Assembly (NCBI GenBank): GCA_003193925.1
Contig: PSPG01000001.1
Span: 124,001 to 188,000, forward strand
Source: Candidatus Thalassarchaeum betae
GTDB lineage: Archaea > Thermoplasmatota > Poseidoniia > Poseidoniales > Thalassarchaeaceae
Length of the DNA: 64,000 bases
Direction of reading: 5' to 3'
Shown here: positions 18,392 through 21,407 of the stretch, piece after piece
Numbering within the stretch: the first letter of the stretch is position 1
Layout: every line of letters starts with the position of its first letter
The notes under the pieces: generated by a model
Told to the model about the DNA's origin: nothing
Databases searched by the model: none
Seen by the model: only the letters and a program-made list of their open reading frames with translations
Made by a program: the position numbers and the translations under genes

Positions 18392-19519
18392 CTAGGAGTT
18401 GTCCCCACTATCGTCATGGCCACCACCAAGCCCCCCCGCCTCTTCCCAGCACGAGTCTTCGAGGTTGCTCTCCGCCCCATCCTGCTTCAGGCACGGGTGG
18501 TGGTTGGTGAAGACGTCGAATTGGGTGAGCCACGGCTCGATGATCCATGCGTGAGTCATCCAGTAGTCGTCTAGGTGCACGTTGGTCCCATCCATGGAAT
18601 GGCACTGCTCGTCGCTGATGTCCTGGCCGACCACTTGGAAACTGGAGTTCGTGAAGCAGAGCACCTCGTGGACATGCCACCAGTCGTTGCCACCAGGGAA
18701 CCCGGCCGGTGGATTCTCTGAATCAGTCCTCACGTACCATGCGAACCCAACTAGCACTGCATCCTGTGCGCTGCTGGCGTACATCAGGAACTCAGGTCGT
18801 TCGAAATCGAAATCCTCGTCCATCCTAGTGCCGGGGAACTCTGGGTTGAGGGGGTCGAAGCCGTCGGGCTCCATCGAGAAGCCCTCGAGCCTGATGTGAT
18901 GCGTGCCCATGCCCTTGACGTAGTCCACAGCCATGTGGAAACCGTCCGCTTCGGCATCGGCGACTGTGGGCCACTGCATCGCCCACTCGATAGCAGCCTC
19001 GAACTGCTCTGAAAGGTCGAGACAGTCCTGCCATGACAGCATCCCCTTCGTCATACCGTGATAGGCAGGGGCGAGGTGGTCGCCGTGCTCTTGACCATCG
19101 CCGTGACCGGTGCCCATCGAGTGGCACCACCATGGGCGCATCGACATGTCGACCTCGACATCCGCGCAGCCGTCACTGGCCGCTGTCTCGTTAGCAGGAG
19201 TCGATGGGCAGGAGTCGTCCGCGTCGACGAGACCGTCACCGTCACTGTCCCTCTCAGTAGCGCCACAGCCAGATCCGTCCACAACTTCACTGACCGGGGT
19301 CGTGGCGCATTCATCGATGGCGTCTGAGACGCTGTCACCATCCCCATCTAGCTGAGTTGCCGAGCAACCGTCCTCGTCGACCAGTTCCTCAATTGGGGTC
19401 AGAGAGCACAGGTCGAGCTCGTCGGTGACGCCGTCATCGTCCTTGTCGGGAGGTCCGACGCAGCCGGCTAGCGAGCCGCACAGCAGTAGCAGGGCCATCA
19501 GCGCGGCTCGGAGACTCAT
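18392..19519 (-). CDS. secreted lipoprotein with thrombospondin type 3-like repeats
   Basis: Lipobox-like LLLLCGSLAGCVG; repeats DKDDDGVTDELDLC, DGDGDSVSDAIDEC, DSDGDGLVDADDSC. Confidence 0.7.
   Translation of the reverse strand: MSLRAALMALLLLCGSLAGCVGPPDKDDDGVTDELDLCSLTPIEELVDEDGCSATQLDGDGDSVSDAIDECATTPVSEVVDGSGCGATERDSDGDGLVDADDSCPSTPANETAASDGCADVEVDMSMRPWWCHSMGTGHGDGQEHGDHLAPAYHGMTKGMLSWQDCLDLSEQFEAAIEWAMQWPTVADAEADGFHMAVDYVKGMGTHHIRLEGFSMEPDGFDPLNPEFPGTRMDEDFDFERPEFLMYASSAQDAVLVGFAWYVRTDSENPPAGFPGGNDWWHVHEVLCFTNSSFQVVGQDISDEQCHSMDGTNVHLDDYWMTHAWIIEPWLTQFDVFTNHHPCLKQDGAESNLEDSCWEEAGGLGGGHDDSGDNS
19130..19450 (-). repeat. TSP3-like Ca-binding Dx[DN]xDGxxDxxDxC repeats (three units, within 18392..19519)
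   Basis: Three units in the translation, each followed by PxxExVDxxGC spacers. Confidence 0.6.
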
Positions 19520-20088: not shown

Positions 20089-20406
20089 TCAGCCGAAGAG
20101 CGAGCCGAGGCCCTCGAAGCCCCCGCCCTCTTCCTCAGGCTCTTCCTCTGCAGCCGCTTCCTCAACCGGAGCCGCCTCAGCAGCCCCACCGCCACCAGCG
20201 GCGGCAGGTGCGGCTGAAGCCACCGGGGCTGCCACGGCGGTAGCCATGGCCTCACCAATGTCGACAGAGCCCAAGGATGCGATCAGAGCCTTTACACGGG
20301 CTCCGTCAGCATCCACCCCAGCGGCGGTCAAGACCGCGCTGACAGCGTCTTCGTCGATGTTCTTCTCAGCAGAGTGCAGTAGCATTGCAGCATATACATA
20401 TTTCAT
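20089..20406 (-). CDS. rpl12: 50S ribosomal protein P1/L12
   Basis: MKYVYAAMLLHSAEKNIDEDAVSAVLTAAGVDADGARVKALIASL... Ala/Glu hinge and GLGSLFG C-terminus. Confidence 0.95.
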   Translation of the reverse strand: MKYVYAAMLLHSAEKNIDEDAVSAVLTAAGVDADGARVKALIASLGSVDIGEAMATAVAAPVASAAPAAAGGGGAAEAAPVEEAAAEEEPEEEGGGFEGLGSLFG

Positions 20407-20459
20407 TTTTTTTCACCTTTCCTTCAACCGAAGAGATCGCCCAGTCCGTAGAACCCGGC

Positions 20460-21407
20460 TCACTCCTCTTCCTCCTCTTCCTCCTCGGGAGGCGCCTCAG
20501 CACCAGCATCCAAGTCAGCCGCATCGGAGGCGGCGGCGTCAGCGCCCTCGAGCGCTGAGGAATCTAATTGGCCAGCGATGGCCAGAGCACGGGCGCTCGC
20601 CCGCGCGACGAGCATGGAAGCGGTTTCGTCGTTGACGACTCCGGCTTCGATGGCCACTGCCATGGCCTCGCTGCTGGCCTTGGACAGCAGGGCGGGCACG
20701 GTGGCAGTGGAGAACCAGCGAGTGTTGCACGCTAGGTTGAAGGCACCCGAGGTCGCTGTCATGACATCGTTTCGGAAGCCTTCGAAATCGAGTTTGAGCG
20801 AGGAGGCTGGGAACACGAAGCCGCCCTCGATGGCCCCGGTCAGGATGAGCCCGATCTCGATTGGTGTGATTCCCAGCTTGGCCAGCATGATACCCAGGTC
20901 ACCAGTGATTGCCTCGCCCTCGTTGACGACCGTCACGGTCCTCTGGATGGCGACCTTGCCCCTGTCTATCTTGGCTGGGATCCCGACGGCGTTGAACTCC
21001 CCGACGATGGGGCCGGGACCGAACTCGGTCGGCCCCTTCTCGACGACGATGTCTACAGGGGCCAACTCACCTTCCTTGGCAACTCGCCCCTGACGGGTCT
21101 TCTCCAGCTCGGCGAACAGCTCGAAGGCGTTCAGGGATTCCGAGTGAACTACACAAGGCTGGGCGGCGCCCTCGAACAGTTGCTCCAATTCCACCTCGGA
21201 GCGACCAGCCTGCTCCCAAGCGAGCTTGATCAGCGTCTTCTTCGCCACGGTCATCGTCATCTGGTCGCGCAGCGAGCTGCGCATGTCGAGCATATTGCCC
21301 GCAGGGACCCCGCTGATGTCCACGATGCCGACTATGCCATCGCCGCTGAGTATCTCGGCGAGCTCAGAGACGCGGTCTTTCTTCCAAGGGGCTGCCTTGG
21401 CTATCAC
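20460..21407 (-). CDS. rplP0: 50S ribosomal protein P0 (uL10), ending at TGA just before an in-frame GLGDLFG tail
   Basis: APWKKDRVSELAEILSGDGIVGIVDISGVPAGNMLDMRSSLR...; GTG start overlaps the L1 stop; ORF track start at 21509 is over-extended; in-frame tail continues to 20424. Confidence 0.9.
   Translation of the reverse strand: MIAKAAPWKKDRVSELAEILSGDGIVGIVDISGVPAGNMLDMRSSLRDQMTMTVAKKTLIKLAWEQAGRSEVELEQLFEGAAQPCVVHSESLNAFELFAELEKTRQGRVAKEGELAPVDIVVEKGPTEFGPGPIVGEFNAVGIPAKIDRGKVAIQRTVTVVNEGEAITGDLGIMLAKLGITPIEIGLILTGAIEGGFVFPASSLKLDFEGFRNDVMTATSGAFNLACNTRWFSTATVPALLSKASSEAMAVAIEAGVVNDETASMLVARASARALAIAGQLDSSALEGADAAASDAADLDAGAEAPPEEEEEEEE

Follow-up and report, generated by a model that had tools for sequence, protein, structure and literature searches.

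The stalk operon and the end of P0

The window, that is the whole stretch of 64,000 nucleotides analysed here, comes from a genome of the Thalassarchaeaceae (marine Group IIb) and carries a ribosomal stalk operon arranged as L11-L1-P0-P1, in which models supported the assignment of L1, P0 and P1, whereas L11 was assigned from its position and sequence only. L1, upstream of P0, matched NF003244. P1 (L12; 20089..20406, minus strand), downstream of P0, is intact, ends in GFEGLGSLFG and matches TIGR03685 over the cut-off. The P0 gene itself (uL10, aL10; 20460..21407, minus strand) encodes 315 amino acids and ends in EEEEEEEE followed by TGA. Its start is a GTG at 21407 that overlaps the L1 stop; a 349-amino-acid version of this open reading frame would place the start inside L1. 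A sequence-only reading of the window had proposed that the gene is ribosomal P0, and this was confirmed by matches to NF003098 ('ribosomal protein L10'; E=2.9e-85, yet under the model's 331-bit cut-off) and to the P0 chains of PDB 3A1Y and 4V6U (E~1e-54). Homology to archaeal P0 extends over the rRNA-binding domain, domain II and the P1-binding spine (20559..21407, minus strand), and this body can be considered complete because its alignment spans residues 2-283 of Pyrococcus horikoshii P0 in 3A1Y.

The P0 stalk tail is treated as conserved in archaeal and eukaryotic ribosomes. The translated open reading frame of the window, however, lacks the C-terminal GLGxLFG tail that an archaeal P0 shares with P1. 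On the minus strand, from 20486 to 20424, eight glutamate codons (GAG GAG GAA GAG GAG GAA GAG GAG) lead into a premature TGA (20460..20462), behind which eleven codons follow in the same frame (GCC GGG TTC TAC GGA CTG GGC GAT CTC TTC GGT; 20427..20459). They spell AGFYGLGDLFG, a vestigial stalk tail, and are closed by a second TGA that would be the ancestral P0 stop codon (20424..20426); P1 starts 17 bases later, at 20406. The letters bear out the earlier observation that a conserved stalk tail lies in frame behind the TGA. Tailed members of the genus carry EEEAGFDGLGDLFG or a close variant fused in frame at the equivalent position, so the resemblance reflects true homology and not chance, and the DNA of the window tail coincides with that of the closest tailed congener (G010) at 31 of 33 bases. 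The same reading was also judged right in holding a reassignment of TGA throughout the genome to be unlikely.

Tailless P0 within the genus and exchange of the P0 end

Relatives with 81-88% P0 identity to the window include 'Candidatus Thalassarchaeum betae' (G001), MED-G34 (G002) and UBA623 (G005). The sequence-only reading had named a sense codon at the position of the stop in close relatives as a finding that would refute it, and the genus turned out to hold both states: among its 12 members with a readable P0, seven have a sense codon (GAA or GAT) and the tail, and five have a stop, which is TGA in the window and TAA at the identical codon in G001, G002, G005 and G012. Among the matches listed from the 150 family genomes searched, an in-frame stop was found in these five P0 genes only, all of this genus; for nearly all of the remaining P0 of the family the match extended over the last position of the profile, and a few others were fragmentary or missing. 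At one further locus (L069, genome G023), the acidic linker of P0 enters a run of N in the assembly at the position of the tail.

The stop is accompanied by a second change. All five tailless species share the junction (20547..20548, minus strand) of a 39-nt (13-codon) deletion in the hinge, where the missing stretch, about DEALAQALGAAAS in tailed relatives, aligns as one junction, and because of it the five tailless proteins all have exactly 315 residues. Downstream of the stop, the tail has decayed in the four species with TAA, in forms such as AGFDELGYLFDW and AEFNGPGDSSN: the remnant of G001 is AGFDELGYLFDWKK, and that of G012, G002 and G005 is AEFN(G/D)PGDSSN. The terminal stop is gone from these four as well. 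P1 is intact and ends with GLGSLFG in every congener read.

The distribution of the tailless state conflicts with the relationships of the species. In a tree of ten genes the tailless species are not united: the window and G001 form one pair, while G012, the tailed G010, the tailed G009 and the pair of G002 and G005 form a ladder with strong support. The tree of the P0 body agrees with this arrangement. From about 20622 to 20428, however, most informative sites join G002 and G005 to G012 and separate them from G009 and G010, marking a recombinant tract (about 20428..20622, minus strand) that comprises the end of P0 with hinge, stop and tail and has a history different from that of its flanks. 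In the tract tree the five tailless species fall into one clade (98/96), the species grouping being rejected there (p=2e-7), and outside the tract it is the tailless clade that is rejected (p=9e-5). Sites that join all five number 13 in the 198-bp tract versus 2 among 1703 flanking sites (p=1e-11), and sites private to the window and G001 number 0/180 versus 87/1703 (p=2e-4); the limits of the tract were picked after viewing the sites, which makes these p-values somewhat flattering, and the size of the contrast is independent of that choice. Distances behave in the same way, since G002 and G005 lie 0.08 from G012 inside the tract versus 0.16 in the flanks (p=0.001), and 0.22 from their sister G009 inside versus 0.08 outside (p=2e-8).

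Homologous recombination is expected to leave a short tract whose tree disagrees with those of the sequences on either side. The trees and site patterns together indicate that the tailless state does not track the species tree and that a tract of ~200 bp at the end of P0 has moved between species by this route, probably more than once. Vertical inheritance of a single loss in a clade of five is rejected by the trees. Another scenario considered was that the group of seven species lost the tail once and that G009 and G010 regained it; monophyly of this group is not rejected (p=0.11), but the distances within the tract disfavour such a scenario. Since the distance between G002 and G012 is smaller within the tract than beyond it, the spread of a tailless allele seems to fit better than a regain of the tail.

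Other features of the neighbourhood also vary in the genus. By the stalk operon, positions 18392-19519 of the window encode a protein that begins like a lipoprotein and contains Asp-rich repeats; among the nearby genomes compared, it has a near full-length match only in G001, G002, G009 and G010; in other members of the genus, ~234 residues are matched at 51-55% identity. G005 and G012 diverge sharply from their sisters downstream of P1.

Absence of the P0 tail elsewhere in Thermoplasmatota

Outside the genus, several other lineages of the phylum lack the P0 tail. In family f16 all 30 of the 30 loci read have a P0 that ends right after the spine (for example in ...GLDDELKEMT), and the other f16 matches likewise stop before the tail. 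The tail is also absent from 5/5 loci of family f5, 2/2 of f21, from f29, from 1/2 of f23, from one locus of f54 and from locus L034. The P0 tail is consequently not universal in the protein family, as it is missing from several other Thermoplasmatota P0. The partner protein behaves differently: P1 keeps a GL(G/S)xLF(G/D/E) end in nearly all tailless loci, one locus being cut off. In the other family of the order, f2, and in f3, the readable P0 matches reach the end of the tail, and a few are partial or missing. When tail state is mapped on a tree of 58 P0 sequences, it must have changed six times, and well-supported branches force four of these changes.

The P0 ends found at these loci are of two kinds. 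At L065-L068, L078-L107, L178, L180, L184, L189, L192, L195 and L198-L200, which belong to several Thermoplasmatota families, P0 finishes right after the P1-binding spine with neither hinge nor tail, and the downstream P1 is tailed. At L034, L070 and L197, P0 retains a long acidic linker without the GLGxLFG tail; the linker and the tail have therefore been lost separately. No report of a natural loss of the P0 tail in archaea was found in the open-access literature searched.

The probable truncated allele and the stalk

The most probable explanation, to which we assign a probability of about 0.87, is that the P0 of the window is a truncated, tailless allele that was inherited, and that the tail DNA behind its stop is a non-coding remnant. 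The hinge deletion and the stop before the tail, common to five species of one Thalassarchaeaceae genus, belong to an allele that recombination carried from one species to another in a short tract over the end of P0, with the old tail DNA persisting downstream in differing stages of decay. On comparative grounds this tail is a fossil of a lost structure and does not point to hidden readthrough, since four sister species share the cut, their leftover tails are decaying and further lineages of the phylum have lost the tail too. The earlier suggestion of a recent nonsense mutation thus stands as regards a truncating nonsense allele and fails as regards its recent age, the allele being common to five species and spread by recombination. 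An error of sequencing or assembly, which had also been put forward, could have made the TGA by one base change in a single metagenome-assembled genome; its chance is negligible, because the five tailless P0 come from independent assemblies of several projects, and four other species carry a stop at the same codon together with the same deletion. A variant of the truncation explanation, which is no alternative to truncation, gives the window a stop of recent origin, unconnected with the TAA stops of its relatives; on this view only the tract with the hinge deletion is common to the five species, and stops at the same codon arose repeatedly. The use of TGA versus TAA, the intact tail of the window, a linker change at 20473 that is common to the four TAA species and absent from the window, and the lack of tract sites private to the window and G001 (0/180 versus 87/1703 in the flanks) all speak for it. 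It would nevertheless require separate stops to have fallen on one of ~12 codons able to give one; moreover, in the closest tailed relatives this codon is GAA, from which TGA is reached in two steps, most simply through TAA, and the T at 20462 is common to all five tailless species. We consider such an independent origin unlikely.

The remaining explanation is that TGA readthrough, programmed or tolerated, yields a minor tailed P0 beside the tailless form in the window species, where selection keeps the tail. Leaky readthrough of this kind would give a minority of tailed P0 and a mixture of six- and seven-tail stalks in the window species, the other tailless congeners having lost the tail permanently. 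TGA is generally the leakiest stop codon, and among the five tailless species the window alone has it and alone retains both tail and terminal stop. Besides, the tail has changed less than it should have under a genome-wide neutral clock: fourfold sites on the window branch show 0.40 changes per site, a rate at which ~10 changes are expected in the 33 tail bases and 1 is seen (P(<=1)=8e-5; P=8e-5 to 0.02 for this comparison as a whole), and this was counted against plain truncation. By the tract's own clock for the window branch, however, 2-3 changes are expected and 1 is seen (P=0.14-0.37), so that the excess vanishes and the retention of the tail is unremarkable. The only change on the branch is nonsynonymous, leaving the remnant with one amino-acid change and no synonymous ones, which is not the pattern of selection at the protein level. 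Selection on the window tail is therefore suggestive under one clock and absent under another, and the near-intact tail is read as a remnant that is young or that decays slowly, and its age appears to explain its state well enough. The four relatives weigh further against readthrough. A conserved TGA with conserved downstream context, for which the sequence-only reading had proposed a search, is not what they present: they have TAA and a decayed tail. Readthrough as a conserved mechanism is rejected on this finding, as neither the stop nor the downstream codons are kept. Among the tRNAs gathered by Rfam search and ARAGORN in this genome (~92% complete), no UCA anticodon was found among those that ARAGORN resolved (42 tRNA-like hits, 1 unresolved), and the Rfam matches to tRNA-Sec all fell below the gathering score. 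The one hit left unresolved (L137; G000:C21:92997-93146) is a 150-nt tRNA-like sequence that is probably an intron-bearing tRNA. The RNA after the TGA folds no better than most shuffles (z -1.4 to 0), with no unusual special structure found there. Programmed readthrough, raised at the outset as an option, finds no support in these results, and we regard even the leaky form restricted to the window species as very improbable.

In published structures, P1 dimers sit on the P0 spine. In the window their anchoring should be intact, because the alignment of P0 covers residues 2-283 of 3A1Y. Ribosomes would stop at the TGA, the intact spine of P0 would still anchor the P1 dimers, and translation factors would be recruited by the P1 tails alone, making P1 the likely sole remaining source of stalk tails. 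In yeast, the carboxyl end of P0 is reportedly essential only when P1/P2 are absent. The archaeal stalk is a complex aP0(aP1)6 of one P0 and three P1 dimers, and the P1 tail binds EF1A, EF2, IF5B and ABCE1 (PMC6791870, PMC11624264). Loss of the P0 tail would cut the number of stalk tails from seven to six. By analogy a six-tailed stalk may be tolerated, and the tailless state can be taken as viable because other lineages are tailless.

Comparison with known systems places this P0 among those of archaea. Its body, domain II and P1-binding spine can be aligned over their whole length with the P0 of P. horikoshii (3A1Y) and P. furiosus (4V6U), in the same L11-L1-P0-P1 order, but it differs from them in lacking a translated GLGxLFG tail and has a hinge 13 codons shorter than that of its congeners. 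It would resemble bacterial uL10 with bL12 in being an anchor devoid of a factor-recruiting tail, with lateral dimers supplying all the tails, although it has the domain II and spine of archaea and an archaeal P1 partner. A further parallel is the yeast P0 from which the tail was removed (Santos and Ballesta 1995, listed in PMC10552409 and known here by its title), where the P0 tail is reportedly dispensable while P1/P2 are present; the yeast protein was engineered, whereas the loss in the window would be natural, inherited and spread by recombination. Stop-codon readthrough in archaea is represented in a review by selenocysteine and pyrrolysine only (PMC8211752), and these recoding systems share with the window an in-frame stop with homologous sequence downstream, but here no decoding tRNA was found, the relatives have TAA and the downstream sequence decays. 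One archaeal phylum has thus shed the P0 tail repeatedly while keeping that of P1, with one genus displaying stages of the decay, and a tract of ~200 bp has carried part of a core ribosomal protein, one with relevance to function, from species to species. Close species pairs with and without the tail would constitute a natural test of the number of stalk tails that a ribosome needs.
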